Of a DNA stretch of 64,000 nucleotides, positions 23,986 to 43,564 are shown piece by piece (the first letter of the stretch is position 1; each line of letters begins with the position of its first letter). Below the pieces are notes generated by a model, which did not search any database, was not told the origin of the DNA, and worked only from the letters and a program-made list of their open reading frames with translations. Location: contig JAQTNF010000004.1 of NCBI GenBank assembly GCA_028713995.1, positions 17,563 through 81,562 of the forward strand, in the 5' to 3' direction. Source of the stretch: Deltaproteobacteria bacterium. Lineage in GTDB: Bacteria > Myxococcota_A > Polyangia > JAAYKL01. Both the position numbers and the translations under genes were made by a program.

Positions 23986-24109
23986 ATGGCGCCTCACCGG
24001 TAGCCACCCGTTCGTCGCGCGAAAGAACGAAGCTAGGCGTTGCTCGCCACTGTTTTTGACGGTCCATTGACAATCCAGCGACTCGTGTTCGTTCTCAGTG
24101 TAAGACCTT

Positions 24110-24425: not shown

Positions 24426-27302
24426 ATGGCCCGCTTGTCCTCACCACCCGCCTCCTCGTCCGCCGTGATCGCCCCCGGCGCCCACATCGAGTTGCGCGAC
24501 GCGGTGTGGCGGGTCGTCAGCGTCGATCAGACCTCGAGCCAGCACTCCGCGTGGCGCTGCATCGGCGTTTCCGAGATCGTCCGAGACCAGGAGGCGGTGT
24601 TCCTGGAGGAGTTCGAGCCCAAGCTCCGGGTGCTCGACCCGCGCGAAACGAGGCTCGAGCAGGACCTGTCCTCTCACCACCGCGCCGGGCTCCTCTACAT
24701 CGAGAGCCTGTTGCGCGATGTGCCGCCGCCCGACGACGGTCTGTATGTCGGCCCGCTGGCGGCGATGGACCTACTCCAGTACCAGCTCGACCCGGCGTGG
24801 CAGGCGCTGCAGCGCCCACGCCAGAGGATCCTGATCGCCGACGCGCCGGGCCTGGGCAAGACGCTCGAGACCGGGATCCTGCTTTCGGAGCTCATCCGCC
24901 GCGGGCGCGGCCGGCGCATCCTCGTCGCCACGGTTCAGTCGAACCTCACGCAGTTCCAGAAGGAGATGTGGTGCCGGTTCTCGATCCCGCTCGTGCGCCT
25001 CGATTCGGCGGGCCTGCAGCGGATACGGGCCGACCTTCCCACGCACCACAACCCGTTCCACCATTTTGACCGCGTGATCATCTCCATCGACACGCTCAAG
25101 CAGAACAACTGGTTCCGCACGCACCTTGAGCGCTCCTACTGGGACATCATCGTCGTCGACGAGGCGCATAACGTCGCCACGCGCGGCTCGAGCCAGTCGA
25201 TGCGGGCGCGTATCGCCGATCTCCTTGCCACGCGCTGCGACAGCTTGATCCTCGTCTCGGCCACGCCGCACGACGGCAAGGCGCGCAGCTTCGCGAGCCT
25301 GATGAACATGCTCGACCCCACGGCCATCGCCGACCCGGACGACTACACCAAGGAAGACATCGGCGGCCTGTACGTCCGGCGCTTCAAGGGTGACGTCGCT
25401 GAAGAGCTCGGGAAGCGCATACCGGATCGGCGCATCAACACGGCATGGGCATCGGCGTCGTTGGCCGAGGAGCGGGCGTTCGAGACGCTGGCGAGCTTGT
25501 CGTTGTCCCGTGTCGACAAGTACCACACCGGCGAGCTCCTGTTCAAAACCACCATCGAGAAGGAGCTGTTCTCCAGTCCGGCCGCGTGCCTGTCGACGAT
25601 ACGCAACCGCATCCAGCGGATTGGGAAGCGCGAGGACGCGGACGATTTCGCCCAGGACGTTAAAGCGCTCGAGGCGCTCGCCGAGTACGTCCGCGCCGTG
25701 CACGAGGACGCCGGCGCGTTCAGCAAGTACGGCAAGCTGCTCGAGCTCATCCGCCACACTTGGAAGTGGAATCCGCGCAAGGCCAAGGACGACCGGATCG
25801 TCATCTTCACCGAGCGGCTCGAGACGCTCGCTTTCCTGGAGACGCACCTCGCCCATGACCTCGGTCTGGAGGAGGGGCAGTGGCACACGCTCGACGGCAG
25901 CATGTCCGACATCGAGCAGCAGGAGGTCGTCGAGGCGTTCGGCAAGGAGAAGGACCCGATCCGGCTCCTGCTCGCCACCGACGTCGCCGCCGAGGGGCTG
26001 AATCTCCACTACCTCTGCCACCGGCTCGTCCACTTCGACGTGCCGTGGTCGCTTATGAAGTTCCAGCAGCGCAACGGCCGTATCGACCGCTACGGGCAGG
26101 AGTGCGAGCCACATATCGTCTACATGCTCACCAAGACCGACCACGCGGCGATCCGCGGCGACATGCGCATCCTGGAGCTGCTCATCGAGAAGGACACGCA
26201 GGCGAACAAGAACATCGGCGACCCGTCCGCGTTCATGAACGTGTACGACATCGACGAGGAGGAGCTGATCACCGGGCGGGCCATCGAGGCGGGCCAATCG
26301 GCCGAAAAGTTCGAGGCGGAGCTCGAGGCCCGGTTCGTCGACCCGTTCGCCGTGATGCTCGGCGAGGCCACCGTGTCGCCAAGGGGCAAGGCGCCGACCC
26401 GCACGCTCTCCTCCCTGTTCGCGTCGGACTTCGACTACCTCTCCATGGCCGCTGCGCGGTTGCGCGAGACGATCAAGCTCGAATGCGAGCTGCGCCCCAA
26501 CGAGAAGCTGGCCGAGCTGCGCATCCCCGACGACCTGCGGCGTCGCCTGCGCAAGCTGCCCGCCGAGGCATTCCCGGACGACGGGACGCTGCTCCTAACC
26601 TCGGACACGGCGCGCATGCAGCAGGCGCTCGCCGATGCCCGTCGCGAAGAGAACACTTGGCCCGTGCACCAGTTCCTGTGGCCGAACAGCCCGATCCTGC
26701 AGTGGGTGGGAGATCGAGTGCGCAGCGAGTTCGGTCGCCACGCAGCGCCAGTGCTCACCGTCAACGACGGGTTCAACCCGGGTGAGGTCGTCGTGATCGT
26801 TTCCGGGCTCCTGCCGAACCGGCGGGCGCAGCCGCTCGTCCACAACTGGTACGCGGTGCGCTTCGAGAAGAACAAGGTGAAGGAGGTGGAGCCATTCCGC
26901 TCCTTCCTGGAGAGGACCAGCTTCGGCCGGCGCGATCTGCCCAACGCCAAGAACGCCGTCGACATCGACGCGCTCACCCAGCTCCTGCCTATGGCAGTCG
27001 AGGTCGCGGGCAACAAGCTCGAGGAGGATCGGCGCGTGTTCATCGAGCGGACCGCCCCGCGCCTGCGCGAGGAAAAGACCCGGCTCGAGCGGCTGCGCGG
27101 CCGGCAGCTCGAGTTTGCCGAGCGCATCCTCGGCGAGCGGACGGACAGCCTCGCCACGCAGAAGCACGACAACAAGAAGCTGCACATCGAGAAGGTGTTC
27201 AGCGCCTACGAGCAGTGGGTGGTGGACGCAATGACCGTCGGCGCCGCACCGTTCATCCAGGTGGTCGCGGTGCTCGTCGCGCAGGACGGGGGGCGGCGAT
27301 GA
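24426..27302 (+). CDS. SNF2-family helicase, DrmD-like (DISARM class 1-like)
   Basis: 958 aa; ILIADAPGLGKTLETGILLSELIRRGR, IIVVDEAHN, LILVSATPHDGK, LLLATDVAAEGLNLHYLCHRLVHFDVPWSLMKFQQRNGRIDRYGQ. Confidence 0.85.
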   Translation: MARLSSPPASSSAVIAPGAHIELRDAVWRVVSVDQTSSQHSAWRCIGVSEIVRDQEAVFLEEFEPKLRVLDPRETRLEQDLSSHHRAGLLYIESLLRDVPPPDDGLYVGPLAAMDLLQYQLDPAWQALQRPRQRILIADAPGLGKTLETGILLSELIRRGRGRRILVATVQSNLTQFQKEMWCRFSIPLVRLDSAGLQRIRADLPTHHNPFHHFDRVIISIDTLKQNNWFRTHLERSYWDIIVVDEAHNVATRGSSQSMRARIADLLATRCDSLILVSATPHDGKARSFASLMNMLDPTAIADPDDYTKEDIGGLYVRRFKGDVAEELGKRIPDRRINTAWASASLAEERAFETLASLSLSRVDKYHTGELLFKTTIEKELFSSPAACLSTIRNRIQRIGKREDADDFAQDVKALEALAEYVRAVHEDAGAFSKYGKLLELIRHTWKWNPRKAKDDRIVIFTERLETLAFLETHLAHDLGLEEGQWHTLDGSMSDIEQQEVVEAFGKEKDPIRLLLATDVAAEGLNLHYLCHRLVHFDVPWSLMKFQQRNGRIDRYGQECEPHIVYMLTKTDHAAIRGDMRILELLIEKDTQANKNIGDPSAFMNVYDIDEEELITGRAIEAGQSAEKFEAELEARFVDPFAVMLGEATVSPRGKAPTRTLSSLFASDFDYLSMAAARLRETIKLECELRPNEKLAELRIPDDLRRRLRKLPAEAFPDDGTLLLTSDTARMQQALADARREENTWPVHQFLWPNSPILQWVGDRVRSEFGRHAAPVLTVNDGFNPGEVVVIVSGLLPNRRAQPLVHNWYAVRFEKNKVKEVEPFRSFLERTSFGRRDLPNAKNAVDIDALTQLLPMAVEVAGNKLEEDRRVFIERTAPRLREEKTRLERLRGRQLEFAERILGERTDSLATQKHDNKKLHIEKVFSAYEQWVVDAMTVGAAPFIQVVAVLVAQDGGRR

Positions 27303-30300
27303 TCGGCATCGGAAACGTCCAGGAGTTCTACACGAACCACTACCTGGCCGCGATCATCCACGGCGACATCCGTCCGGTCATCCAGAAATGGCTGGAGGCG
27401 TCCCGCGAGGGCGACGACCGCTCGCCCCATCGGCAGCTCGCCGGCATGCAGCAGCCGTTCTTTCGCTACCGGGACCGTCTGGGCCGCCTGAAGAACGCCG
27501 AGCCGCGGGTCGAGGCGCACGCGGAGATGCAGGCGCAGCTCCTCGACGCGCTTGGGTACACGGTGCGCCGGCTTCACCGACACGTGCCGTCCGGGCCGCT
27601 CCCGCTGTTCGGGGAATGGCGTCGCGGCGACGGGTCGCCTCTGCTCTGGTTGCTGCCGGTGGCGAGTGGTCACGATCAGCAGGGCGACGTCCTCGGCATG
27701 AAGCTCCTGCCCGAGCAACACGCCCTCGTGCCGGACAAGCCGCTGGACTTCGACCCGGGGAAGATCGGCGAGCGCTCCGTGGAAGAGCTCGTCACCGAGG
27801 CGTTCGGCCTGGAAGAGGCGCCGCGGTTCCTGCTCGTGCTCGGCGACACGGAGTGGGTGCTCGCCGACCGCGACAAGTGGGCCGAGCAGCGGATGCTCCG
27901 CTTCGACTGGGCAGAGATTCTGGGCCGCCGCGAGGACGAGGCCCTGCAGACCGCTGCGGCGATCCTTCACCGCGATTGTCTGGCGCCAGAGTCCGGGACC
28001 GCGCTCGTCGACACCCTGGACGACAGCTCCCACAAGCACGCCTTCGAGGTGAGCGAGGATCTCAAGTACGCCCTGCGCGAGTGCATAGAGCGCCTCGGCA
28101 ACGAGGCGATCCGCTACCGCCGCGAGGTGAGCAAGAAGAAGGTGTTCGGCGAGGAGATCAGCGGCGCGGAGCTGTCCCGGGAGTGCCTGCGGTTCATGTA
28201 CCGCATCCTCTTCTCCCTGTACGTCGAGTCGCGGCCCGAGCTCGGCTACGCGCCGACGCAGGAGGAGTCGTACCGGCTCGGGTACAGCTTCGACCGCTTG
28301 CGCGACCTCGAGACGGTCGAGCTCGAGACCCCCGAGGCGAGGAACGGCTTCTACATCCACGAGAGCTTGCAGCGGCTCTTCCAGATGATCTACGACGGCA
28401 CGTCGGTCGAGGCGCAGCACGCGCTGTTCGGCGCCGACGGCAAGGCCCGCGCCGACCTCGCCGAGGACGAGTCGCTCTCGTTGCACCACACGTTCCGGAT
28501 GGTGCCGCTCCGCGCGCACATCTTCGACCCGTCCCGGACGTTGTTCCTGAATCAGGTGCGCCTGCGAAACGAGGTGCTGCTCGAGGTCATCAAGCTGATG
28601 AGCCTCTCGCGGCCCCAGGGTACGGGCAAGTTCAAGCGACGCGGGCGCATCTCCTACGCCACGCTCGGCGTGAACCAGCTCGGCGCGGTGTACGAGGCGC
28701 TCCTCTCCTTCCGCGGGTTCTTCGCCGAGGAGACGCTGTATGAGGTGAAGTCCGCGGAACAGGAGGCGCCGAACCCGCTCGACGTCGCCTACTTCGTGCC
28801 CGAGGCGGACCTCAAGCGGTACTCCAAGGCGGAGCGCGTCTACGACGAGGAGACCCAGGATCTGAAGTCATACCCGCCCGGGACGTTCATCTACAGGCAG
28901 GCGGGCCGCGACCGCGAGAAGTCGGCGTCGTACTACACGCCCGAGGTGCTCACCCGCTGCCTCGTCAAATATGCGCTCAAGGAGCTGCTCGAGGACGAGA
29001 AGGGAAAGCTCAAGCTCAAGGCCGAGGAGATCCTGAAGCTCACCATCTGCGAGCCGGCGATGGGGAGCGCGGCGTTCTTGAACGAGGCGATCAACCAGCT
29101 CGCCGAGAAGTACCTCCAGGCGCGGCAACACGAGCTCGGTGAGCGCATCCCGCACGAGACGTACCAGGGCGAGCTGCAGCGCGTGAAGATGTACCTCGCC
29201 GACAACAACGTGTTCGGCGTGGACCTGAACCCGGTGGCGCTCGAGCTCGCCGAGGTGTCGCTGTGGCTGAACGCCATCTTCTCGGAGGAGACGCCGCAGG
29301 GGCGGCGCGTGTTCGTGCCGTGGTTCGGCGCCCAGCTCTCGTGCGGCAATAGCCTGGTCGGTGCGTGGCGCAAGGTGTTCCCGGCGGCGAGCGTGGATCC
29401 GGGCAAGAAGCGCGACAAGGCGGCGTGGCTCGACGCGGTGCCCGAGCGCGTTCCTCTGGGTCAGAAACGTGCGGCCGGGTCGGTGTACCACTTCCTCCTG
29501 CCGGACAACGGGATGGCGACGTACGGCGAGGGGTCGGAGGGCAAGCCGATCAAGGAGATGTGCGGCGACGCGCTCAAGGGGATTAAAAAATGGCGCGGCG
29601 AGGTGTGTGCGCCGCTCGATCCGGACGAGACTCAGGCGCTCTCCCGGCTCTCGGACGCGGTGGATCGCCTGTGGGGCAAGCACGCGGAGCTGCTCAAGAA
29701 GCTGCGCCTGCGCACCACCGACCCTCTCGCGGTGTACGGGTTCCATCACCCGCGCGCCGGCGAGCAGCCGACCACGACCGAGGAGAAGGACCGGATCTGG
29801 GCCAAGGAGATGGAGAGCGCCCAGGTGCGCGCCGCGAGCCCGTACCGCCGGCTCAAGCTCGCCATGGACTACTGGTGCGCGCTCTGGTTCTGGCCCATCG
29901 AGAAGGTGGGGCTCCTGCCCGAGCGCGACGAGTGGCTCGCGGACATGGCGCTCCTCCTCGATACAGACGTGCTCCCGCAGCTCGTGGGCGACCGGCAGCG
30001 GGATCTGTTCGCCCCGACCATGCCGTCGGAAGACGCGAAAAAGCTCGCCGACGAGGTCGGCATCGTCGACGTGGACAAGCTGATCGGGCGCTCGGAGCGG
30101 CTGAAGCTCGTGGACAAGCTGTCGCAGCGCTACCGGTTCCACCACTGGGAGCTCGAGTTCGCAGACATCTTCGCGGAGCGGGGAGGATTCGACCTGATCT
30201 TGGGGAATCCTCCGTGGATTCGCGTCGAGTGGAAAGAGGCGGGCGTGCTCGGCGATCACGACCCGGCGTTCGTGCTCAAGAAGCTCTCCGCGCCCGAAAC

Positions 30301-32134
30301 CGCGAAGCTACGTGCCAAGGCCATCGAGGAGCACAACATCCTCTCCGACTACCTCGCCGCGCACGAAGAGTCGTCTGGTCACCAGGCGGTGTTCACATCG
30401 AAGCAGCTCTACCCGGAGCTCGTCGGTGTGAAGGCGAACCTCTACAAGTGCTTCCTGCCGGTGGCGTGGCAGGTGGGGAAACGCGATTCGGTCGCGGGTT
30501 TCCTGCACCCGGAGGGAATCTACGATGACCCAGGCGGCGGCTCTTTGCGCCGTGTAAGCTACCCGCGTCTCAGGCGGCATTTTCAATTCTCAAACGAAAA
30601 GAAGCTGTTTCCAGTAGGAAACCGAGAACGGTTCAGTATCAACGTTTACGGCCCCAAGACCCCTATTGAATTCGACCACATCGCCAATCTGCTTCTGACC
30701 ACAACGATAGACGAATGCTATTCCCATGCCGGACAGGGTGCGGTTCCCGGGATAAAAACTGACGAAGATGACTGGGACCTTGCCGGTCATCGGGATCGAA
30801 TCATTAGCATAGGCGAGGAGCAGCTGACCCTGTTCGCTAGGCTGTTTGATGAGGAGGGCACACCCCCTGTTGAGGCCCGGTTGCCGGCCCTTCATGCGGG
30901 CCAACTCCTCGGCGCGTTGGAAGCGTTCACCGCTGCACCACAACGCCTAAGTGACGTGGAGCGTTGCTTCCCGACGTTCCATTTCAACGAAACCTACGCG
31001 CAGCACGACGGTACTATTAAGCGTGGCACACGGTTTCCGAAAAAACCCAGCGAGTGGGTTATCTCGGGGCCACATTTTTTCGTTGGTACGCCAACCTACC
31101 AAACACCCAAGCGCGTCTGTGAGACGCATCGTGCCTATGACTCACTAGACCTCGTTAGCCTGCCCGATGACTATATGCCCCGCACCAACTACGTTCCGGC
31201 GTGCACGTCAGTCGAGTATCTGAAACGCACACCTGACGTGCCTTGGTCGAAAGAAATCGGGCCCAGGAAGGTAACGGAGTATTACCGGTTAATTGCGCCA
31301 AAGATGATAGGTCCTGCCGGAGAGCGAACCCTCCAACCTGCAGTTGCACCGCGAGACGTAGCCCACATTGAGGCGGTCTATGGTTTCATTTTCTATGATC
31401 AGAAACTGATGACACAGGCTGCTGCGACTTGGATGGGAATCACGAGCGACTTCTTGATTAAAACATTGGGGATTACCAATTTTCGCCCCAATATTGCCCG
31501 CCAGCTACCCATTATCACCGACTTCGAGCAGGAGCTCCGCCTCCGCGCGTGCGTGCTCAACTGCCTGACCACGCACTACGCCGACCTCTGGTCGCTCTGC
31601 TATGACAAGTCGTGGAAGAAGGACACCTGGGCCAAAGAAAGCGACAGCCGGCTCGACCCGAAGTTCTTCGCGAAGCTCGGCCCCACGTGGAACCGCGACT
31701 CGGCGCTCCGCTACGACTACGCCCGCCGCCAAGCGCTCGTGGAGATCGACGTGCTCGTGGCGATGGGGCTCGGCATGACGCTCGAGCAGCTCCAGACGAT
31801 CTACCGGATCCAGTTCCCGGTGATGCGTGGCTACGAGAAGGACACCTGGTACGACGCGCGGGGCCGGATCGTCTTCACGAACAGTAAGGGGCTTCCCGGT
31901 GTGGGACTTCCTCGCGCCAAGGCAGCGAACCACCCGGACGGCCCGTACTGGAACGACGTGAAGGAGATGACCTCGGGCAAGGTCACGCAGGTCGTCGAGG
32001 ACGACACCTTGCCCGGCGGGCCGTACGAGAAGACCATCGAGTACGTCGCCCCGTGGACCCGCTGCGACCGCGAGCGCGACTACGAAGAGGTCTGGGCGCA
32101 CTTCGAGAAGAGGTTCGGGAGGAAGTACCTGTGA
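27299..32134 (+). CDS. Large N6-adenine DNA methyltransferase (DrmMI-like / Eco57I-like)
   Basis: 1611 aa; SAD-type motif I EPAMGSAAFLNEAINQLAEKYL and motif IV FDLILGNPPWIRVEW; ATGA overlap with the helicase. Confidence 0.88.
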   Translation: MIGIGNVQEFYTNHYLAAIIHGDIRPVIQKWLEASREGDDRSPHRQLAGMQQPFFRYRDRLGRLKNAEPRVEAHAEMQAQLLDALGYTVRRLHRHVPSGPLPLFGEWRRGDGSPLLWLLPVASGHDQQGDVLGMKLLPEQHALVPDKPLDFDPGKIGERSVEELVTEAFGLEEAPRFLLVLGDTEWVLADRDKWAEQRMLRFDWAEILGRREDEALQTAAAILHRDCLAPESGTALVDTLDDSSHKHAFEVSEDLKYALRECIERLGNEAIRYRREVSKKKVFGEEISGAELSRECLRFMYRILFSLYVESRPELGYAPTQEESYRLGYSFDRLRDLETVELETPEARNGFYIHESLQRLFQMIYDGTSVEAQHALFGADGKARADLAEDESLSLHHTFRMVPLRAHIFDPSRTLFLNQVRLRNEVLLEVIKLMSLSRPQGTGKFKRRGRISYATLGVNQLGAVYEALLSFRGFFAEETLYEVKSAEQEAPNPLDVAYFVPEADLKRYSKAERVYDEETQDLKSYPPGTFIYRQAGRDREKSASYYTPEVLTRCLVKYALKELLEDEKGKLKLKAEEILKLTICEPAMGSAAFLNEAINQLAEKYLQARQHELGERIPHETYQGELQRVKMYLADNNVFGVDLNPVALELAEVSLWLNAIFSEETPQGRRVFVPWFGAQLSCGNSLVGAWRKVFPAASVDPGKKRDKAAWLDAVPERVPLGQKRAAGSVYHFLLPDNGMATYGEGSEGKPIKEMCGDALKGIKKWRGEVCAPLDPDETQALSRLSDAVDRLWGKHAELLKKLRLRTTDPLAVYGFHHPRAGEQPTTTEEKDRIWAKEMESAQVRAASPYRRLKLAMDYWCALWFWPIEKVGLLPERDEWLADMALLLDTDVLPQLVGDRQRDLFAPTMPSEDAKKLADEVGIVDVDKLIGRSERLKLVDKLSQRYRFHHWELEFADIFAERGGFDLILGNPPWIRVEWKEAGVLGDHDPAFVLKKLSAPETAKLRAKAIEEHNILSDYLAAHEESSGHQAVFTSKQLYPELVGVKANLYKCFLPVAWQVGKRDSVAGFLHPEGIYDDPGGGSLRRVSYPRLRRHFQFSNEKKLFPVGNRERFSINVYGPKTPIEFDHIANLLLTTTIDECYSHAGQGAVPGIKTDEDDWDLAGHRDRIISIGEEQLTLFARLFDEEGTPPVEARLPALHAGQLLGALEAFTAAPQRLSDVERCFPTFHFNETYAQHDGTIKRGTRFPKKPSEWVISGPHFFVGTPTYQTPKRVCETHRAYDSLDLVSLPDDYMPRTNYVPACTSVEYLKRTPDVPWSKEIGPRKVTEYYRLIAPKMIGPAGERTLQPAVAPRDVAHIEAVYGFIFYDQKLMTQAAATWMGITSDFLIKTLGITNFRPNIARQLPIITDFEQELRLRACVLNCLTTHYADLWSLCYDKSWKKDTWAKESDSRLDPKFFAKLGPTWNRDSALRYDYARRQALVEIDVLVAMGLGMTLEQLQTIYRIQFPVMRGYEKDTWYDARGRIVFTNSKGLPGVGLPRAKAANHPDGPYWNDVKEMTSGKVTQVVEDDTLPGGPYEKTIEYVAPWTRCDRERDYEEVWAHFEKRFGRKYL

Positions 32135-32814: not shown

Positions 32815-32855
32815 GAAATGATGTTCCGGCCGAAATGCCTTCACGAGGTGTGCTG

Positions 32856-35800
32856 ATGATCCCGTCTGCTCTTACCGCCCAGCTACAGCAGGGTCTCGCC
32901 GACTTCCTGCGTTACTCGTTCTGGTCGTCGACGCCGGGCATGGAGCACGTCATCGAGGATCTCATCGACGCACCGGGTGGCGTGACGCACGGCCCGTACC
33001 TGTCGGTGAAGCTGCCGTTCGCCAGCGGATCCAAGCGGAACTTCTTCACAGACGTGCCGCTCGGCTTCACCCCTCACGCCCACCAGGAGCGCGCGTTCGA
33101 GCGCCTTGGCGGGAAGGAGAAGCGGAGCACCCTCGTCGCCACGGGCACGGGCTCGGGCAAGACCGAGTGCTTTCTGCTCCCGATCCTCCAGCACTGCGCC
33201 GAGACCGCGAACGAGCCGGGCATCAAGGCGATCCTGATCTACCCGATGAACGCGCTCGCCACGGACCAGGCCGAGCGCATCGCGCGGCTCATCTACGACA
33301 ACCCCAAGCTGCGCGGCCGGGTCACGGCCGGGCTGTACATCGGCGAGTCCAAGGGCAAGAAGCGCACGGCGGAAGAAGGGATGGGGCCGCGCCACATCGT
33401 CACCGACCGCGACGTGATGGAGAAGAGCCCGCCGCACATCCTGCTCACCAACTACAAGATGCTCGACCTCCTGATGCTCCGGCCGTGGGTGCAGGGCATC
33501 TGGCGCCACAACCGCCGCGGCGACCTTCGCTACCTCGTGGTCGATGAGCTGCACACGTTCGACGGCGCGCAGGGCACGGACCTCGCGTGCCTGATCCGGC
33601 GGCTCAAACGCCTCCTCCAGGTGGACGACGGGTCGCTTTGCTGCGTGGGTACGAGCGCCACTTTGGGCGGTGCCGGCGCTAAGAAGCAGCTCCTCGACTA
33701 CGCCGGCCAGGTGTTCGGCGAGCCGTTCGACGACGGGGCGCTCATCGGCGAGTCGCGGCTCGACGCGCCCGGGTTCCTCGCCGGCGCCGATGCGACGTTC
33801 ACCGACGAGCCGGACCTTTCCGACCTCGATGCGCTCGCGGCCGAACGATACGACGATTCCGAAACTTGGCTGCGCGAGCAGGTGCGTCTCTGGTTCGGCG
33901 GAGTCCATGAAACCGCGGACCCGGAGAGTTGGGCGGTGGAGCTCGGCGAGCGGCTCCGGTGCCATGCGGCGTTCCGTGCGCTCCTCGGACTGCTCGACGG
34001 GCACGTCGTCGGTCTCGGCGACGCGGTGCAGTCGCTCTCCCGGGCCCGCACCTCATGGCGCCAATCGCCGCACCTCGGTCGTGCTGCGCTGCTCAGCCTG
34101 CTCGGCCTCGTCTCTGCCGCCCGTCGCCGGGTCGAGGTCTCGCCCGGCGTCTTCGAGACGACCCGCTTCCTCGACGTCCGGATCCAGCTCTGGCAGCGGG
34201 AGATGGCGCGCATGGTCGCGACCGTGACGCAGCGGCCGAGGTTGCGGTTCTCCGACGACCTCGACAAGGAGCAGAAGCGGGAGCATCTGCCGCTCGCCCA
34301 ATGTCGCGATTGCGGCGCCATGGGATGGGGCACGCGGATCGACAAGAACAAGCCGCACGTCCTGCGCTGCGAGCCGAGCGCCTTCTACTCCGCCTTCTTC
34401 CGGAACGACGACCGCGTGGTGTTCCTGTATCCGGCCGCGGCCATACCGCCGGGCGACCCGGTCTGGGAAAGCCGGAGAGTCAGAAGGGTCGATAGCAAGA
34501 ACCTGGTCATCCTGCAGGACGACGAGGAGCCCGGCGGCGAGGTCGTCGAGCTCGTCGAGGTCAAGAACGTGCGACAGACCGACTCCGGGCCAGTGTTGCA
34601 CCGAGACTGTCCGTTCTGCGACGCGCGGGAGAGCCTCGCCCTGCTCGGGTTCCGCGCCGCGACGCTTACGAGCGCGTACATCGATCAGATGTTCGCGTCA
34701 CGCTTCAACGACGAGCGGGACAAGAAGGTGCTCGCGTTCTCGGACAGCGTACAGGACGCGGCGCACCGCGCCGGCTTCTTCAGCGCACGGACGTGGCACA
34801 CGAACCTCCGTGTCGGGATCTCGCGGGTTCTGTGTGACGGCCACGACGGCGCGACCCTCGCCGAGCTCTCTGATGCATTCGTGCGGTACTGGCAGAAAAA
34901 GCTCGACCCGCAGACATGGATCGCGACGTTCCTCGCGCCCAACATGAACTGGCTCCACGACTGGGATGCCCTTCAGCGCGACGGCAAGCTCCCGGTCGGC
35001 TCGGACCTGCCAGCGCTCGTGGCGAAGCGGCTCGCGTTCGAGCTCGTCAACGAGTTCGGGCTCCAGGCGACCATCGGGCGCTCGTTGCCGCGGACAAAGG
35101 CGGCGACCGCTTACATCGACCGCGAGAAGCTCGACGAGACGTGCGCGATGCTGCTCGAACCGCTGCGAAACGAGGTGCCAGGGCTCAAGGGCGCGACCCT
35201 CGCACAGGTGAGAGCGTTCGTGCTCGGAGTCCTGCACCACCTGCGCCTGCGCGGCGGGATCCTGAGCGCCGAGATCCCGGAGGAGTACCTGAAGACGGCC
35301 GGCGACAAGACGTTCATGTTCAACATCTCGCCGCACCTGCCGTCGTTCGCGAAGACGTCGCGCATGTTCGCCTTCATCACGGATCGCCCCGGCAAGCGGC
35401 GGTTCGACTCCTGGTTCGAATCCGCGTCGAAACACTCCGGGTGGTACGAACGCTGGCTCTCCCGCTGCTTCACCCACGACGCCGCGCTCGGCGCCGACGC
35501 ACCGTCCGCGTACCCACCGGCGCTCGCGGCGCTGACCGCGAAGGGGTTGCTCGCCGAAATCGAGGCCGCCAGCAAGACCCGCGTGTGGGGTATCCCGGAA
35601 TCGGCGCTATGCGTGACCCGAGACGTCGTGACCGTGCACTGCGCGAAGTGCGATCACCGCCAGGTCGTCGCCCGGGTCGAGGCGGAGGACTGGTTGAGCG
35701 CTCCTTGCGCCACGGCCCGCTGCGACGGTCGCTACGAGGTCGAGGAGCAGACGCGCCCGGACTACTTCGGCCGGTTGTACGCGCACGGCGACCTGCAGCG

Positions 35801-38800
35801 CATCTACACCGCCGAGCACACCGGGCTCCTGACGCGCGAGGAGCGGGAGCTCGTCGAGCGCCAGTTCAAGGCGGAGACCCGCGCGACCGATGGAAATGGG
35901 GAAGAGGGCGGCGCATCGATTTCGCGGCGCCCGTGGTACCCGAACCTGCTCTCGTGCACGCCGACGCTGGAGATGGGCATCGACATCGGCGACCTGTCGT
36001 CCACGGTCCTGTGCACCGTGCCGCCGACCCAGGCGAGTTACCTGCAGCGCATCGGGCGCGCTGGCCGGCGGGAAGGCAACTCGTTCGTGCTGACCGTCGC
36101 CAACGCCCGGCCGCACGACCTCTACTTCTACGCCGCGCCCGAGGAGATGATGGAGGGGGACGTTCTGCCTCCGGGCGTGTTCCTCGACGCCTCGGCCGTG
36201 CTCGAACGCCAGCTCACCGCCTTCTGCTTCGACCGCTGGGTGGCGAGCGAGGGCGACAAGGCCGTGCTCCCGGCGCACCTCAAAGACGTGCTCTCGCGCA
36301 TCGGAGATCGCGGCGGCACCCACTTCCCGCACAACCTCCTCGCCTTCATCGAACGCGAGCAGCCGACCATCCTGCGCGAGTTCGACGAGATGTTTGCCGG
36401 CCGGATCAGCCCGACGACCCGGGCGCACCTGCGCGCCTTCCTCGTCGGCGACGAGGCGAACAAGGCCGGGCTCGGGTGGCGCCTGCTCGACACGTTCGCG
36501 CGGGAGAAGAAGCAGCTCGACAGCTTCCAGGCCAAGGCGCGGCAATTGAGCGCCGAGATCAAGAAGCTCGAAGCGAGCGAGACCAAACCCCAGGACTACG
36601 AAGATCGGCTTGGCAAGCTGGAGGACGAGAAGGAGGCGCTGCAGGGGCTCATCAACGGCATCAAGGGCAGCGGCAACAGCGCGTCCGGGCATGCGCCGGG
36701 ACGCCAGACGCTCGAGTTCCTCACGGACGAAGGCCTCCTGCCCAACTACGCCTTCCCGGAGACCGCGGTGCGGCTCCGGTCGGTGATCTGGCGGCGCAAG
36801 AAGCGCGTCAGCTCCCAGGGGAGCAAGTACGACACCTGGACCTACGAGTACGCGCGGTCGCCGAGCAGCGCCCTCTCGGAGTTTGCGCCGCACGCCGATT
36901 TCTACGCCGGCGGCCGGCACGTCAAAATTGACCAGGTCGACGTGACGATGTCCGAGATCGAGACGTGGCGGTTCTGCGCCGCGTGCAACCACGCCCAGCG
37001 CGACGACATCGGCGAGAAGTCGTTCTCGTGTCCGGCGTGCGGCAGCACGGCCTGGGCGGATGACGAGCAGAAGCTTCGCCTGCTCCCGCTGAAACAGGTG
37101 TTCGCGAGCGCGCCGGATCGTGAGAGCCGCATCCGGGATGAGCGTGACGAGCGGCAGCCACGCCACTTCCTGCGGCAAATCCTCGTCGACCACCACGATG
37201 TGGACCGGGAGGCTGCGTGGTCCCTCGACGAGCCATCGTTGCCGTTCGGATTCGAGCTCCTGCGGCGGGCCACGTTCCGAGAGCTCAACTTCGGCGTGAA
37301 CATCGACCAGGGACCGAGGACCGACATCGCCGGGAAGAATGCGGCGCGGCCGGGATTCCGAATTTGCACGCGCTGCGGCAAGGTCCAGCCCGACCACAGC
37401 CCGTCGGAGCACGCACCCGCCTGCCCGACCAAAACGCGCGGCGAGAAGGAGTCGGTCGAGCCGTGCCTCTACCTGTATCGGGAGTTCAGCTCTGAGGCGT
37501 TGCGATTCCTGCTGCCGATGGCGGATGTCGGTACTCGGCTGCAGCTGAACTCGTTCCTCGCCGCGTTACAGCTCGGGTTGCGGGAGCGCTTCGGCGGCAG
37601 CGTCGAGCACATCAAGACGACCGTGTACTCGGAGCCCGACCGGGCGAGCTCACTGCGGCGGCAGTACCTCGTCCTGTTCGACAGCGTTCCCGGCGGCACC
37701 GGCTACGTGAAGCAGCTCGTGACCCCGCCTGCCGAGGGCGGCGTGCTCCCGATCCGCGAGGTGCTCGAGCTGGCGCGCAAGCGGATTGAGAGCTGCACGT
37801 GCTGGACCGATCCCGAACGCGACGGCTGCTACCGGTGCCTGCTCGCCTATAGGAACGCCAAGGAGATGGACGACACCTCCGCCCACGAGGCGGTGCAGCT
37901 CATCGGGAAGATCCTCTCCCGGTGGGACAAGCTCAAGCCGATCCCCTCCCTGGGCGACGTCTCGGTGAGCGGCTTGATGGACAGCGTGCTCGAGGCGCGG
38001 TTCATCGAGGCGCTGAAGCAGACCTCATACGGTGGACATCCGAACCGCGTGAAGCACGCGGTGTTCCGCCAGAAGCCCTGTTACCACCTGACCGTCGGCG
38101 AGCAGGAGTGGTACGTCGAGCCGCAGTGCGACGTCGACCACGCGGACAGCTTCGGCATCGTCTATCCCGTCGATTTCGTGCTGTGGCCCGCCGGGCACGC
38201 GACAGCCGAGAAGAGAGACCCGATTGCCGTTTTCCTCGACGGTTTCGAGTTTCACAAGGGGCGCGTCGGGCTCGACATGTCGCAGCGGCAGCGGATGCTG
38301 GCGTCCGGGTCGTGGGACGTGTGGAGCCTTACCTGGTTCGACCTCGACGAGGCGCTTGGGACGCGGCGGCCGGACAACAAGCCAGTGAACCTGGTCCATG
38401 CGAACCTCCAGGAGTTGCGGGATCGATTGCAGGCGTTCGGGCTGGGCGCGTATCGCGATTGGGGCGAGCGCCCAATCTTCGACCTGTTCCTCGCGGACAT
38501 CGGCGATGTCGCTCTCGTGCCCTGGAAGCAGCTGGGCGAAGGGATGCTCGCGAGCCGGATGACGCCGGCGCAGCCCGATAGCGGAACCGTCTGGGCGGCA
38601 GCTGTGAGACAGATGGCGCCGATGCCAGTTCGACCCTTGCTCGATATCGCGACGTGCAAGTTGCAGCTCGCGGACGACGGGGCTCTCAACCCCTGGGTGT
38701 CGGTCCACGCGGTGCACGACGGCCAGAACGTGAAACTTCTCGCGCAGCTCGACGACCGTCCCGATAACCGTGAGCAACCTGGGTTCCGGGAGGCGTGGAA

Positions 38801-39215
38801 CGGATACCTGCGGCTGTTCCAGCTCCTCCGACAGGTTCCGGGCGGCTGGTTCTTCACGCGCACCGGGAACGAAGAGTTCGACAGCGTGCCGCTCATCCAG
38901 CTCCGGAGTGGTCCCGCGGAAGGTGCGCCTTGGTCGACTCTCAACGTGGGGCGTGCGTTCGTGCCCCTGTGTGAGGAGCTCCAGAGCGCGGGCGTCGACA
39001 AGCCTGAGGTCGGTTTGGACATCCCGAATGCCGGAGGTGGCGTCTGGGCCGAGGGTGAGCTCGTCTGGGAGGATCGACGCATCGCGGTGACGGACAAGGC
39101 GCGCATCGGTGATGCCGTCGGCGAAGTGGCTTTGGGGTGGAAGGTGTTCGCGGTCGAGGATCTCGCGTCCATCGACCCACTGCTCGCAGCGTTGAAAACG
39201 GAAGGAGGCGCCTGA
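32856..39215 (+). CDS. Giant DEAD/DEAH-box helicase with C-terminal DUF1998 (DrmA/DrmB-like or DruE-like)
   Basis: 2119 aa; TLVATGTGSGKTECFLLPIL, YLVVDELHTFDGAQG, CVGTSATLGG, YLQRIGRAGRREGNSFVLT; DUF1998-like LVLFDSVPGGTGYVKQL...CTCWTDPERDGCYRCLLAYRNA; several CxxC pairs. Confidence 0.9.
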   Translation: MIPSALTAQLQQGLADFLRYSFWSSTPGMEHVIEDLIDAPGGVTHGPYLSVKLPFASGSKRNFFTDVPLGFTPHAHQERAFERLGGKEKRSTLVATGTGSGKTECFLLPILQHCAETANEPGIKAILIYPMNALATDQAERIARLIYDNPKLRGRVTAGLYIGESKGKKRTAEEGMGPRHIVTDRDVMEKSPPHILLTNYKMLDLLMLRPWVQGIWRHNRRGDLRYLVVDELHTFDGAQGTDLACLIRRLKRLLQVDDGSLCCVGTSATLGGAGAKKQLLDYAGQVFGEPFDDGALIGESRLDAPGFLAGADATFTDEPDLSDLDALAAERYDDSETWLREQVRLWFGGVHETADPESWAVELGERLRCHAAFRALLGLLDGHVVGLGDAVQSLSRARTSWRQSPHLGRAALLSLLGLVSAARRRVEVSPGVFETTRFLDVRIQLWQREMARMVATVTQRPRLRFSDDLDKEQKREHLPLAQCRDCGAMGWGTRIDKNKPHVLRCEPSAFYSAFFRNDDRVVFLYPAAAIPPGDPVWESRRVRRVDSKNLVILQDDEEPGGEVVELVEVKNVRQTDSGPVLHRDCPFCDARESLALLGFRAATLTSAYIDQMFASRFNDERDKKVLAFSDSVQDAAHRAGFFSARTWHTNLRVGISRVLCDGHDGATLAELSDAFVRYWQKKLDPQTWIATFLAPNMNWLHDWDALQRDGKLPVGSDLPALVAKRLAFELVNEFGLQATIGRSLPRTKAATAYIDREKLDETCAMLLEPLRNEVPGLKGATLAQVRAFVLGVLHHLRLRGGILSAEIPEEYLKTAGDKTFMFNISPHLPSFAKTSRMFAFITDRPGKRRFDSWFESASKHSGWYERWLSRCFTHDAALGADAPSAYPPALAALTAKGLLAEIEAASKTRVWGIPESALCVTRDVVTVHCAKCDHRQVVARVEAEDWLSAPCATARCDGRYEVEEQTRPDYFGRLYAHGDLQRIYTAEHTGLLTREERELVERQFKAETRATDGNGEEGGASISRRPWYPNLLSCTPTLEMGIDIGDLSSTVLCTVPPTQASYLQRIGRAGRREGNSFVLTVANARPHDLYFYAAPEEMMEGDVLPPGVFLDASAVLERQLTAFCFDRWVASEGDKAVLPAHLKDVLSRIGDRGGTHFPHNLLAFIEREQPTILREFDEMFAGRISPTTRAHLRAFLVGDEANKAGLGWRLLDTFAREKKQLDSFQAKARQLSAEIKKLEASETKPQDYEDRLGKLEDEKEALQGLINGIKGSGNSASGHAPGRQTLEFLTDEGLLPNYAFPETAVRLRSVIWRRKKRVSSQGSKYDTWTYEYARSPSSALSEFAPHADFYAGGRHVKIDQVDVTMSEIETWRFCAACNHAQRDDIGEKSFSCPACGSTAWADDEQKLRLLPLKQVFASAPDRESRIRDERDERQPRHFLRQILVDHHDVDREAAWSLDEPSLPFGFELLRRATFRELNFGVNIDQGPRTDIAGKNAARPGFRICTRCGKVQPDHSPSEHAPACPTKTRGEKESVEPCLYLYREFSSEALRFLLPMADVGTRLQLNSFLAALQLGLRERFGGSVEHIKTTVYSEPDRASSLRRQYLVLFDSVPGGTGYVKQLVTPPAEGGVLPIREVLELARKRIESCTCWTDPERDGCYRCLLAYRNAKEMDDTSAHEAVQLIGKILSRWDKLKPIPSLGDVSVSGLMDSVLEARFIEALKQTSYGGHPNRVKHAVFRQKPCYHLTVGEQEWYVEPQCDVDHADSFGIVYPVDFVLWPAGHATAEKRDPIAVFLDGFEFHKGRVGLDMSQRQRMLASGSWDVWSLTWFDLDEALGTRRPDNKPVNLVHANLQELRDRLQAFGLGAYRDWGERPIFDLFLADIGDVALVPWKQLGEGMLASRMTPAQPDSGTVWAAAVRQMAPMPVRPLLDIATCKLQLADDGALNPWVSVHAVHDGQNVKLLAQLDDRPDNREQPGFREAWNGYLRLFQLLRQVPGGWFFTRTGNEEFDSVPLIQLRSGPAEGAPWSTLNVGRAFVPLCEELQSAGVDKPEVGLDIPNAGGGVWAEGELVWEDRRIAVTDKARIGDAVGEVALGWKVFAVEDLASIDPLLAALKTEGGA

Positions 39216-41329
39216 TGCCCCCCTTGAAAGAGGCGTTCCGGGTCGCGATCTTCGACGAGTTCCTCGACGCGTTCGCGAAGATCCCGCGGGCCCAGCAGAA
39301 GAAGGTCAACAAGTTCATCCGCATGTTCCGGGAGAACCCGACGAGCGGCGCGATCAACTATGAGGGGATCTCCTCATTCAGCGACCCGAACCTCAAGACC
39401 GTGCGCATCGACCAGGCGTACCGGGCCATCGTGCTCAAGCCGGAGACCGGCAACGTGTACGTGCTCCTGTGGGTGGACAACCACGACGCGGCGATGGCGT
39501 GGGCCAAGAACAAGCGCGTCGCCATCCACCCCGAGACCGGCTCGCTGCAGGTGCTCACTGTGCACGAAGGCGAGAGGCGACCTTCGCAGCCGCCGCCGGC
39601 CGGAACCAAGGCGTTGTTCGAGAAGATCCGAGACCGCGAGCTGCTGCGGCTCGGCGTGCCGACGGAACTCCTGCCGCAGGTACGCGAGGTTCACGATCAA
39701 GAGCAGCTCGACGGGCTGGAGTCGACCCTGCCGGCCGAGGCGTATGAAGCGCTCTTCTTCCTCGCCGAGGGCGAGCCGCTCGCGGACGTCGAGGAGGCGC
39801 TCGCCGTTGCCGACGTCACGAACGTGGACGTCAACGACTTCGACGCTGCGCTCGACCGGGACGCCTCCAAGCGCCGGTTCGTGATCGTGGACAACGACGA
39901 GCTGCTCGAGTCGATGCTCGACGCGCCGATGGAGAAGTGGCGCATCTTCTTGCACCCGAACCAGCGGCAGCTCGTCAACCGGTCGTGGCCCGGACCGGTC
40001 CGCGTTCTGGGCGGCGCCGGCACCGGCAAGACCGTGGTCGCGATGCACCGGGCCGCGTACCTCGCCGAGAAGCTGTTCACGAAGATCGAGGATCGCATCC
40101 TGTTCACGACGTACACCGTGAACCTGGCGGCGGACATCGAGGCGAACCTGCGCAAGCTCATGTCTCCTGCAGCGCTGCGCCGCATCGAGGTGGTGAACCT
40201 GGATCGGTGGGTCGCCGGGCTCCTGCGACGGAGCGGATACGAGTACAAGGTGGCCTACTGGCCGACCGACAAGGGCCTCGCCGCCGCCTGGGACAAGGCG
40301 ATGACGCTCGCGAACGAGGGCGCGTTCCCGAAGAACTTCTTCCGGGACGAGTGGGAGCTCGTCGTGCAGGCGCAGGGGTGCGCGCGCTGGGAGGACTACC
40401 AGGCGTCGTCGCGCTCGGGACGCAGCGTGCGGCTCTCGCGCAAGCAGCGCCAAGAGATCTGGCCGGTGTTCGAGGAGTACCGGAACCAGCTCGAGAAGCA
40501 GGGGTTGCGGGAGCCCGAAGATGCGATTCGGGACGCGACCGCGCTGGTCAAGAGCGGCAAGGCCCAGGTGAGCTACCGCGCCATCGTCGTCGACGAGGCA
40601 CAGGACATGAGCACCAACGCCTTCACGCTGCTCCGGCAGATCATCCCCGAGGAGCGGGCCGACGACCTTTTCATCGTCGGCGACGGGCACCAGCGGATCT
40701 ACCGCCGACAGGTCGTGCTCGGGCGCGCGGGCATCAACGTCCGCGGACGGCGCGGGCGGCGACTCCGCATCAACTACCGCACCACGGAGGAGATCCGGAG
40801 GTTCGCCGTGTCACTGCTCGAGGGCGTGCATGCCGACGACCTCGACAACGGCGAGGACACCACCAAGGGCTACAAGTCGCTGATGCACGGCGAGGCACCG
40901 CACGTCGAGAGCTTCCCGACGCTCGACGCCGAGGTCGTGGCCATCGCCAAGTGGTTGAAGACCGGAAATCTCGAGCAGACGTGCCTCGTCGCGCGCACGA
41001 ACGACTGGCGGGACAAGTACGCCGCCGCCCTCGAGAAGCGCGGCATCCCGGTATACGCGCTCAAGCGCTCCGAGGCCGAGGACACCTCCAAGCCGGGGCT
41101 GCGCGTCGCGACGATGCACCGGGTCAAGGGGCTCGAGTTCTCGCGCGTCGTCATCGCCGGCGTGAACGAGGGGCTCGTCCCGTCGAAGGACGCCATCGAG
41201 AAGTCCGCCGACGAGGCGGTTCGCTCCGAGGCCGAGGATCGCGAACGTGCGCTGCTCTACGTCTCCACGACACGGGCCAAGAAGGATGTGCTGATCACCT
41301 CGTGTGGGAAGCCAAGCAAGTGGGTGTGA
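39215..41329 (+). CDS. UvrD/SF1 helicase with N-terminal RelE/ParE-like domain
   Basis: 704 aa; N-terminal FDEFLDAFAKIPRAQQKKVNKFIRMF...LKTVRIDQAYRAIVLKPETGNVYVLLWVDNHDAAMAWA, then [65 protein letters not shown]. Confidence 0.85.
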   Translation: MPPLKEAFRVAIFDEFLDAFAKIPRAQQKKVNKFIRMFRENPTSGAINYEGISSFSDPNLKTVRIDQAYRAIVLKPETGNVYVLLWVDNHDAAMAWAKNKRVAIHPETGSLQVLTVHEGERRPSQPPPAGTKALFEKIRDRELLRLGVPTELLPQVREVHDQEQLDGLESTLPAEAYEALFFLAEGEPLADVEEALAVADVTNVDVNDFDAALDRDASKRRFVIVDNDELLESMLDAPMEKWRIFLHPNQRQLVNRSWPGPVRVLGGAGTGKTVVAMHRAAYLAEKLFTKIEDRILFTTYTVNLAADIEANLRKLMSPAALRRIEVVNLDRWVAGLLRRSGYEYKVAYWPTDKGLAAAWDKAMTLANEGAFPKNFFRDEWELVVQAQGCARWEDYQASSRSGRSVRLSRKQRQEIWPVFEEYRNQLEKQGLREPEDAIRDATALVKSGKAQVSYRAIVVDEAQDMSTNAFTLLRQIIPEERADDLFIVGDGHQRIYRRQVVLGRAGINVRGRRGRRLRINYRTTEEIRRFAVSLLEGVHADDLDNGEDTTKGYKSLMHGEAPHVESFPTLDAEVVAIAKWLKTGNLEQTCLVARTNDWRDKYAAALEKRGIPVYALKRSEAEDTSKPGLRVATMHRVKGLEFSRVVIAGVNEGLVPSKDAIEKSADEAVRSEAEDRERALLYVSTTRAKKDVLITSCGKPSKWV

Positions 41330-41339
41330 CCGCAAGGAC

Positions 41340-41885
41340 ATGGAGTTGCACATGAGAACTGCAGACCTTCTGGACATTCTCCGTGCCGAACGAGTCAAGG
41401 CAATCGCTAAAGAGCTGGGCGTGTCGACGACAAGCGCAAAGAAGAGTGATCTCGTCAAACGCATCGCTTTGTCTTTGGCGCACAGGACTAACAACCGGGG
41501 CGAGCGCCTAGGCTGGGAGAACGCCATTCCGGAACTGATCGGCGCCATGACTGGAGAAGATGTCACCGATGTCTTTCGAGGCACTGAGTGGAAAGGCGAT
41601 GACTTTACCTATGAAGCTATCGCAACAAGTATCGGCCGCGTCGGCGTGGACGAACGCAGACGACTTCTTGTGGACGTGGCGCTCGCTGAGCAAGGCATCG
41701 GTGGCAAGTCCATCGACGACATCTGTGGCGACGGCAAGTACGCCAACTGCTTCACGGTGGATGACGAGGGTGATGACGAAGAAGATTGGGAGAACGACTG
41801 TACTGAGGACGACGATGACGAAGGTCGTGACACTGTACGAGTAGAATGCCCGGAGTGCTCAGGAAGTGGCAGGGATACCGCTTAA
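41340..41885 (+). CDS. Small protein with SAP-like N-terminus, Asp/Glu-rich tail and CPECSGSG motif; alternative start 41352
   Basis: RTADLLDILRAERVKAIAKELGVSTTSAKKSDLVKRIALSL (SAP-like), DDEGDDEEDWENDCTEDDDDEG, VECPECSGSGRD. Confidence 0.6.
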   Translation: MELHMRTADLLDILRAERVKAIAKELGVSTTSAKKSDLVKRIALSLAHRTNNRGERLGWENAIPELIGAMTGEDVTDVFRGTEWKGDDFTYEAIATSIGRVGVDERRRLLVDVALAEQGIGGKSIDDICGDGKYANCFTVDDEGDDEEDWENDCTEDDDDEGRDTVRVECPECSGSGRDTA

Positions 41886-41887
41886 GA

Positions 41888-43114
41888 ATGCCAACGATTA
41901 AATGCCATCTTTGCGGTGAAGAATTCAAGGCTTCGTTCTACGATTTCTGGACCTGCGGCGCTTGTGGGTTTGATTGCGGAATTCGTCTTCATGAGCACGC
42001 GCCGGACGAGATGGGAGAATTACTGGCGTTCTTCGAGAAGATTCGGGCGACTCGTTCGTTTGGTTCCTCTGGAAGCGTTCTTGCGCTTATGAAGACCCTT
42101 GAGAAGCCTGAGGACACCAAGGCGTTCAGCTCCTGCATCGATACTTTACTTCTTTTCTTTGATTCGCTTGTTGTGCCCTCGATCACGATCGAGACGTTAG
42201 CGCGTGCTCTTGGGGACAAGAAACTCGAAGTTTATCAACAGCACGGCTTGCTGAAATGTTCAGACATTAGCTTTGTGCAAGCTCAGGTCGGCGGTGTGGA
42301 CGCTTTGGGAGGGGACAAGCAAAAAGCCTTGTTCAATCTCGATTTGATTGGCGATGCCTTGCCAGTCAACGCGGAAACCCAATACGGGCATTCGCGATAC
42401 GAACTCGCGATGTCCTTGGCGAATCTTGAGCACGTGATTCTGAATGAACTGGTCGATCTCCTTAAAGAACGCAATCTCTTCAATGCACATAGAATTGGAA
42501 ACACGGAGATTGTTCGCCTCAGAGGTCGCGATTACGTCGACCGAGAACTCGCCCATTTGATTCCGTATCGGTTCTTGAGAAGTGAAGTTTTCTGTCATTT
42601 CTTCTCGTTCTCAATGCTTTACGATCAGCACTACGGCATCGCGAATGTGTTGAAGGAAACGCGCTTCGTCCGCGGATGGGCAGAAGGTGGGTCCGAATAT
42701 TCTCTTTTTCATCAATGGTTGCGCACGACCTCGTTTACACTGAAGGTTTTGGAGCCCTTACAGGTGCTTGAATTTCGGTCAAGGCACGGATCACTTACGG
42801 GCTTGGTTTCAGCGATTCAGAAGGAGGCCATAACGCGGCGGCAGAATCTTGGAGAGAGCGACCAAGCGCAGGCTTTTGGCAGGGAAATCGAAGAACGAAT
42901 TCGTCATTTTCGGAAAGTTAAGGGCAAAGGACACGAACGAAAGGCGATTTACCTGACAGGCCTTTTAAGCACCTTAGGGTCCCTTCTGAATGGGCCGCTG
43001 GGAGCGGTGATTGGTGGGATTGGCGGCACTATCGCAGCGGACTTAGCGTTGGAGTTCGACAGAAAAACCTCAGGGCCAATCGGCTTCGTGGTAGATGAGT
43101 TCCTCGCCAGTTAG
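41888..43114 (+). CDS. Zinc-ribbon protein with C-terminal glycine-zipper-like hydrophobic segment
   Basis: MPTIKCHLCGEEFKASFYDFWTCGACGFDCG; C-terminal LLSTLGSLLNGPLGAVIGGIGGTIAADLALEF; starts 2 nt after previous stop. Confidence 0.65.
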   Translation: MPTIKCHLCGEEFKASFYDFWTCGACGFDCGIRLHEHAPDEMGELLAFFEKIRATRSFGSSGSVLALMKTLEKPEDTKAFSSCIDTLLLFFDSLVVPSITIETLARALGDKKLEVYQQHGLLKCSDISFVQAQVGGVDALGGDKQKALFNLDLIGDALPVNAETQYGHSRYELAMSLANLEHVILNELVDLLKERNLFNAHRIGNTEIVRLRGRDYVDRELAHLIPYRFLRSEVFCHFFSFSMLYDQHYGIANVLKETRFVRGWAEGGSEYSLFHQWLRTTSFTLKVLEPLQVLEFRSRHGSLTGLVSAIQKEAITRRQNLGESDQAQAFGREIEERIRHFRKVKGKGHERKAIYLTGLLSTLGSLLNGPLGAVIGGIGGTIAADLALEFDRKTSGPIGFVVDEFLAS

Positions 43115-43133: not shown

Positions 43134-43433
43134 CCTGATCTCCGGGACACGTTACACCTGCGCCTGACCGGAGAAGACGTGCAGTTCAAGGACGAAGAGT
43201 TGAAGGCGGCGATCGGGCTGTTGGCCGGTCCCGGCGTGGTGTAGGAGCTGGCGTTCGGCAGTTGGGTGCTTCTCCAGCCGGAGCGCATCAACGCCTACGC
43301 GCAAGCCGTGATCCGGACGTTGCAGGCGGACGAGCACCAGCGCGGCTGCCTGATGGTGGAGCGGGTCTTGACCCCGCAGGGTCTCGCGCACGAGCGGCGA
43401 GGTGGTTGGGGACGGGAGTACTGCTCTCCTTGA
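43134..43433 (+). pseudogene. Remnant of a STAND/COR-type signalling protein, with in-frame TAG
   Basis: PDLRDTLHLRLTGEDVQFKDEELKAAIGLLAGPGVV*ELAFGSWVLLQPERINAYAQAVIRTLQADEHQRGCLMVERVLTPQG; fits a GVVWELxFGxxVLLQPExxxxYAxAVI pattern with TGG to TAG at 43242. Confidence 0.55.
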
Positions 43434-43564
43434 ACCGGTTGCTCACCCCATAGGACAGGCCTTGTCCGGCCTTGCCCCTATACTGTCGAAGACGTCGGCA
43501 CAGTTCCCGCGAGAGCGGCAGCGTGCTACCAGTGGAGAGCATCGGCAAGAGAAAGAGGGGCATC

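Follow-up and report, generated by a model that had tools for sequence, protein, structure and literature searches.

In the stretch of 64,000 nucleotides (nt) of contig JAQTNF010000004.1 (assembly GCA_028713995.1, Deltaproteobacteria bacterium) that was analysed here as a whole (hereafter the window, to which all positions refer), seven tightly packed open reading frames (ORFs) on the + strand occupy positions 24426-43114. These ORFs very probably represent an ARMADA type II antiphage operon that carries one additional gene in a cargo slot between armB and armC and two unrelated genes after armD. The core of the operon is the known ARMADA type II system, and what goes beyond its published description is the cargo slot, the variability of ArmB and the three extra genes of this locus. 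A preliminary description had presented all seven genes as one DISARM-like unit with an atypical gene set.

The ORF coordinates were confirmed and the junctions agreed with those given earlier. Overlaps of 4 nt join the SNF2 helicase gene to the methylase gene (27299-27302) and the methylase gene to the HNH-like gene (32131-32134), and 1 nt (39215) is shared by the giant helicase and UvrD genes. The remaining gaps measure 41 nt (HNH-like to giant helicase), 10 nt (UvrD to SAP-like) and 2 nt (SAP-like to zinc-ribbon). The features of the operon are as follows (aa, amino acids; SAM, S-adenosylmethionine; GC3, GC content at third codon positions):

24426..27302, +, armA, BrxHII/RapA-like SNF2 helicase, 958 aa; Walker A K145, Walker B D245
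27299..32134, +, armB, PglX/YeeA-like N6-adenine methylase, 1611 aa; SAM motif G589, NPPW N970, Eco57I Pfam match
30224..31498, +, low-GC3 block within armB, codons ~976-1400; drop in GC3 at the same place as the hypervariable segment
32131..32814, +, HNH-like cargo gene in the armB-armC slot, 227 aa; C12xxC15, EH24VPPK, C53xxH56N57, D64E65
32856..39215, +, armC, YprA-like DEAD/DEAH helicase with DUF1998/MZB, 2119 aa; MZB at 1569-1662
37983..38345, +, Vsr-type PD-(D/E)XK nuclease motif at the ArmC C-terminus; E1713, D1773, D1795, H1800, D1807, R1811
39215..41329, +, armD, RelE-like N-terminal domain and UvrD/GajB-like helicase, 704 aa; K272, D460, UvrD Pfam matches
41340..41885, +, trailing orphan gene, 181 aa; SAP/Rho_N-like N-terminus, acidic C-terminus with CPEC
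41888..43114, +, trailing orphan gene, 408 aa; N-terminal CxxC/CxxC zinc ribbon, glycine-rich C-terminal stretch

The ARMADA type II core and its relatives

ARMADA type II is a bacterial antiphage system described in a preprint by Bell et al. (2025) and assayed in E. coli, in which the components follow the strict order ArmA (BrxHII-like), ArmB (PglX-like), ArmC (YprA/DUF1998 with a C-terminal Vsr nuclease) and ArmD (RelE-UvrD) (PMC12458937). The locus of E. coli ATCC 8739 (NC_010468, 4239557-4255798) was used as the reference for comparison. Aligned with its counterparts there, the window proteins were 45% identical over 954 columns (ArmA), 47% over 1681 columns (ArmB), 36% over 2172 columns (ArmC) and 48% over 699 columns with the N-terminus included (ArmD). 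With full-length homology and the gene order A-B-C-D on one strand, the core of the window operon is arranged as in E. coli ARMADA II. All of the residues that were mutated in PMC12458937 (8/8) are kept in the alignments, where K145/D245 of ArmA correspond to E. coli K136/D236, G589/N970 of ArmB to G605/N971, K102/D230 of ArmC to K110/D234 and K272/D460 of ArmD to K266/D454, and the Vsr-type motif residues of ArmC are invariant across 34 aligned ARMADA II C-termini. On the grounds of orthology, order, the mutated residues and the invariant Vsr-type residues, genes 1, 2, 4 and 5 are, judged by their sequences, the core of ARMADA type II, a system already known.

In a tree of ArmC proteins, the window fell within the ARMADA II set, its neighbours being loci of the same family and class. 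The DruE outgroup, on a long branch, was separate, and the tree holds no ARMADA I rows. The likeness to ARMADA type II of E. coli ATCC 8739 and NCTC 12900 (PMC12458937) extends to the four-gene core order, the catalytic residues, the Vsr-type C-terminus of ArmC and the RelE-like/UvrD architecture of ArmD. Unlike the E. coli systems, the window has three extra genes, with the HNH-like one between armB and armC, and it belongs to a high-GC assembly (218 contigs) whose nearest ArmC rows in the tree are from Myxococcota.

Searches against the Pfam library gave SNF2 and Helicase_C, an Eco57I/N6 methylase, DEAD, Helicase_C and MZB (the equivalent of DUF1998) in one chain of 2119 aa, and UvrD, in agreement with the earlier labels for these four proteins. 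The RelE-UvrD fusion, which had been counted among the additions to a canonical DISARM set, is in fact ArmD, a signature component of ARMADA II. The check with PADLOC and hidden Markov models that had been proposed was run and recovered the SNF2, methylase and helicase families, but no ARMADA model was among the PADLOC and NCBIfam matches and the labels returned (DrmD, type IIG restriction enzyme-methylase, DruE and GajB) were misleading.

The first of these labels points to class 1 DISARM with a fused DrmA-DrmB. ArmA scores best with DrmD models (332 bits in PADLOC), ArmB matches DrmMI, both systems follow the logic of a SNF2 helicase, an N6-methylase and a DUF1998 helicase, and common ancestry of DISARM and ARMADA is stated in PMC12458937. 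However, ArmA reached only 345 bits against the NCBIfam DrmD model, for which the cut-off is 610, whereas a true class 1 operon of a related genome scored 1029 (DrmD), 1237 (DrmMI) and 853 bits (DrmA) with the same library. As the preliminary description had noted, the functions of DrmA and DrmB are found in one protein and DrmC is missing: the YprA helicase of the window is a single chain of 2119 aa without a DrmA/DrmB split that matches DruE at 316 bits and DrmA at 64 bits, none of the ten proteins encoded between the start of armA and 51643 matched the PLD nuclease DrmC, and RelE-UvrD stands as the fourth component. We consider membership in DISARM highly unlikely. The suggestion of a DISARM relative or a distinct system was right in that the operon is related to DISARM yet is not DISARM, and wrong in so far as the system had already been described.

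A Druantia system, to which the giant YprA-like helicase could be assigned by its top PADLOC match (DruE1, 316 bits), is extremely improbable. No DruH or DruA-D/F/G/M partner was present among the matches of the neighbouring proteins, and the window has a methylase and a SNF2 helicase. The C-terminus of ArmC carries a Vsr motif, not that of a PLD nuclease, and the best piece of its alignment with DruE, the Druantia III helicase of ATCC 8739, gave 33% identity over 214 aa, as against 36% over 2172 columns with ArmC. DISARM and Druantia were both rejected.

The type IIG label would make ArmB a stand-alone type IIG restriction enzyme with the other genes as chance neighbours, in line with its top PADLOC model, REase_MTase_IIG (852 bits). 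Dozens of loci in many phyla nevertheless have an ArmB-type protein in a fixed position between ArmA and ArmC, and the PADLOC models presumably predate the naming of ARMADA. The type IIG label was rejected on account of this fixed order, and we give the idea very little credence.

The armB-armC cargo slot and the variable segment of ArmB

An ArmC alignment was searched in one scan against 85,462 species genomes, yielding 555 relatives. Since the best-scoring 80 of the 555 were kept, the loci are not a random sample; together with other fetched loci, about 100 relatives were compared. Gene borders were set by homology and ORF ends, loci were dereplicated at 80% ArmC identity, genes in the cargo regions were called with a simple codon-usage caller, and the slot was scored only in loci where armB was found within 10 kb.

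A junction longer than 500 nt was found between armB and armC in 25 of 50 dereplicated loci, between armC and armD in 1 of 70 and between armA and armB in none of 32. In a paired comparison of the armB-armC slot with the other junctions, the count was 24 to 0 (p = 1e-7). The genes in the slot are mostly co-oriented with the operon (70 on the + strand, 6 on the - strand) and fall into 57 families, with GmrSD, AbiEii/AbiEi, PIN, AAA_21/AAA_15, Schlafen AlbA_2 and NERD as recognisable families and AbiL, HEC-01, HEC-06 and SspE-like as PADLOC labels. On the ArmC tree, occupancy of the slot changed at least 18 times, 15 of these changes being forced by well-supported branches, and occupied loci clustered no more than shuffled labels. 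Gene 3 of the window is one occupant of this slot.

Traces of cargo turnover were seen in two places. The cargo of one locus (L042, genome G069) contains a duplicate of the armB 3' end, 313 nt long and 92% identical, and in Pseudomonas one locus (L080) keeps a GmrSD cargo gene of which only the last codons remain in another (L076). The slot of L042 reads RecQ-like and DprA-like genes, second armB tail, AAA, an unassigned gene and DUF262 genes, and consists of two cargo blocks in series. The deficit in GC3 of slot cargo is slight overall (mean -3.9 points, 29 loci), and the strong deficit in the window therefore belongs to this locus and not to the slot.

Independent defence genes nested in Hma operons have been reported by Payne et al. 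(2024), as cited in PMC11411939 and PMC12988326, and TgvAB is nested in a type I restriction-modification (R-M) operon of V. cholerae (PMC11411939). The likeness to the slot lies in independent defence genes within a multi-gene methylase/helicase operon, and cargo of the GmrSD and HEC types is found in ARMADA too. In the text of PMC12458937 there is no mention of such nesting in ARMADA, and neither the cargo slot nor the variable segment of ArmB was found in that paper.

Two loci of the comparison depart from the usual layout. L051 (Lujinxingia vulgaris) is an exception to the strict order, with its armA-armB pair on the other strand and divergent from armC-armD, and in L090 the homology to ArmC covers 8.3 kb rather than 6.4 kb, which suggests an insertion within armC.

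The slot adjoins a part of armB that is itself variable. In the window, GC3 falls to 59-63% at the core of a block at codons ~976-1400, just past NPPW, from 87-97% before it, and returns to 92% after it; of 46 loci, all but one have a lower GC3 in the last 40% of armB than in the first 60%. Pairs of near-identical operons were found in separate clades (E. coli, Pseudomonas, Paracandidimonas/Xanthomonas, Chromobacterium/Vogesella and Nostocales), with ArmA, ArmC and ArmD 88-99% identical overall and ArmB down to 28-53% in the regions of residues 1126-1200 and/or 1351-1450; for the Nostocales pair, identity of ArmB was 41-59% across 976-1425. Two E. coli alleles, those of ATCC 8739 and plasmid pQnrS1_005237, share 99% identity in ArmA, ArmC and ArmD, with 28-56% in the variable segment of ArmB. 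ARMADA II was detected in 520-523 of 5,426 E. coli genomes with conserved armB or armC probes, and at the sensitivity of megablast the variable segment of ATCC 8739 was found in only 7 of those ~520 genomes and that of plasmid pQnrS1_005237 in 6 E. coli genomes. Type I, type IIG and PglX methylases have a target-recognition domain of such position and behaviour. By this analogy, the hypervariable segment of ArmB is probably a target-recognition domain, and the low-GC3 block in the armB of the window a probable swapped one.

The three extra genes and the surroundings of the operon

Homologues of genes 3, 6 and 7 were absent from every fetched ARMADA locus, including the sister loci L031 and L044 (ArmC 61% and ArmD 74% identical), with some sister contigs too short to cover every junction. 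The SAP-like gene 6 had no homologue among 237 genomes of the phylum, and the zinc-ribbon gene 7 none among 193 related genomes or in plasmids. GC3 is 60% in the HNH-like, 61% in the SAP-like and 56.5% in the zinc-ribbon gene, in comparison with 86-93% in the core genes. We regard the three genes as recent foreign additions because of their low GC3 and their absence from sister loci; on this sequence evidence, they are lineage-specific cargo outside the ARMADA core. Genes 6 and 7 are most likely defence cargo too. As a tight same-strand gene follows armD in only 12 of 71 loci, they stand in a less used position.

The description of the seven genes as a unit did not survive the co-conservation check of its last genes. 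That the HNH-like, SAP-like and zinc-ribbon proteins are required parts of one integrated machine, a separate seven-component form of ARMADA, appears unlikely. The spacing, with overlaps of 4 nt and no gap above 41 nt, implies that the genes are co-transcribed and perhaps coupled in translation, and the HNH-like gene sits where armB and armC normally touch. On the other hand, the three genes are all missing from the other ARMADA loci examined, those with 61-74% identical core proteins included, GC3 in the three is 25-35 points below that of the core, the homologues of the HNH-like protein occur mostly apart from ARMADA, and four genes were enough in E. coli (PMC12458937).

The protein encoded by gene 3 belongs to a small family spread across phyla, in which the signature CxxC, EHVPPK, CxxHN and DDE is kept in 12 homologues. 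HNH endonucleases have a zinc-binding CxxC...CxxH, a catalytic His and Asn, and a beta-beta-alpha fold. In the predicted model of the HNH-like protein, strands are placed at 21-25 and 48-52 and a helix at 62-72. The sequence had no match in Pfam, NCBIfam or PDB, a Foldseek search with the model returned no match with E below 0.001, and no homologues were found in phages. Most plasmid copies of the family stand alone and one adjoins DUF262 genes. Relatives of the window's genome also have copies. In L149 (genome G134), the gene separates drmD from drmMI within a complete class 1 DISARM operon (DrmD 1029, DrmMI 1237, DrmA 853, DrmB 243 and DrmC 174 bits), and in L143 it stands directly upstream of gajA-gajB (Gabija). 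From this distribution and the motifs, we infer that gene 3 is a candidate mobile defence-associated nuclease. The DISARM operon of L149 holds three extra genes, the HNH-like one and a 520-aa one between drmD and drmMI and a 300-aa one before drmA.

For the trailing genes, a single-sequence AlphaFold model of gene 7 was uninformative (predicted local distance difference test, pLDDT, 37). A simple promoter and terminator scan was also uninformative (promoters, 0 vs 2.0 expected; terminators, 9 vs 12.5). A gap of 358 nt 3' of 43114 sets the operon apart from the next large gene and holds a fragment (43150-43430, +) with an in-frame stop (AIGLLAGPGVV*ELAFGSWVLLQPERINAYAQAVIRTL). The fragment is a probable decayed gene and may resemble the C-terminal part of a STAND/COR-type NTPase.

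Upstream, divergent from the ARMADA operon, lies a Wadjet type II-like set (16667-23997, - strand):

22423-23997, -, JetA (DUF2397)
around 21675-22571, -, JetB, weak match
18052-21966, -, JetC
16667-18055, -, JetD

A 628-aa DUF4365 protein (14989-16875, -) adjoins these genes. Just past a tRNA-Asn, for which no attachment repeat was found within the window, is the gene of a 493-aa protein (13445-14926, +) that also occurs on plasmids. It is homologous (E = 2e-51) to a slot cargo gene of a Firmicutes ARMADA locus (L064:8576-9961), weakly matches the C-terminus of the antiphage protein EruA, and is a candidate defence gene. Downstream, the region 43472-51643 (+) starts with a 2214-aa PD-(D/E)XK and UvrD fusion (AddB-AddA-like in one chain), a rare arrangement found in 1 other among 193 related genomes, followed by two unassigned genes of 304 and 170 aa. 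Further on (53899-61115, -), inspection by eye showed a very large protein that has fibronectin-like repeats and a tail of long Asp-rich repeats, and an S-layer-homology-like protein that precedes it.

Proposed mechanism and significance

In E. coli, defence by ARMADA II depends on each of the four Arm proteins and on their catalytic sites, and it is direct and non-abortive (PMC12458937). In the mechanism we propose, the swappable target-recognition segment in the C-terminal part of ArmB would determine the motif in which the enzyme methylates adenines, so that self DNA is marked in an allele-specific manner. ArmA and ArmC, with the help of ArmD, would load on unmarked incoming DNA, translocate along it and degrade it, the C-terminal Vsr-type domain of ArmC being the putative nuclease that cuts. 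The extra genes would most likely add independent protection; the HNH-like gene, carried along in the operon, probably provides a DNA-targeting defence of its own or one that complements ARMADA.

Several points weigh against an ARMADA II core with separate passengers that acts in this way. A profile search against PDB gave no match for a Vsr fold at the C-terminus of ArmC, and for the RelE fold of ArmD the ParE-like match was sub-threshold and PDB profile searches gave nothing meaningful. The earlier RelE-like, SAP-like and HNH-like labels are accordingly weaker than the others, the SAP-like label of gene 6 coming from a sub-threshold Rho_N/SAP match and the HNH label of gene 3 from motifs only. 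The tight spacing is compatible with extra genes that cooperate with the core. The self-marking step is our own inference, because the word 'methylation' is nowhere in the ARMADA paper (PMC12458937) and the functions at the window locus are read from sequence.

We think it rather probable that ARMADA II is a modular platform, with a rapidly exchanged target-recognition cassette at the armB 3' end and an adjoining armB-armC docking site that independent defence genes enter and leave, perhaps served by one recombination process anchored in the armB 3' end, and that the HNH-like gene is a rider moving between ARMADA, DISARM and Gabija loci.

A caution follows for the annotation of defence loci, in that what looks like a 'seven-gene' operon in a single genome can consist of a known core and its passengers. 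For ARMADA II, first described in 2025, a variable ArmB segment between E. coli alleles that are otherwise 99% identical may bear on self/non-self discrimination. New defence genes could be sought systematically in the fixed cargo slot, with the HNH-like family as one new candidate.

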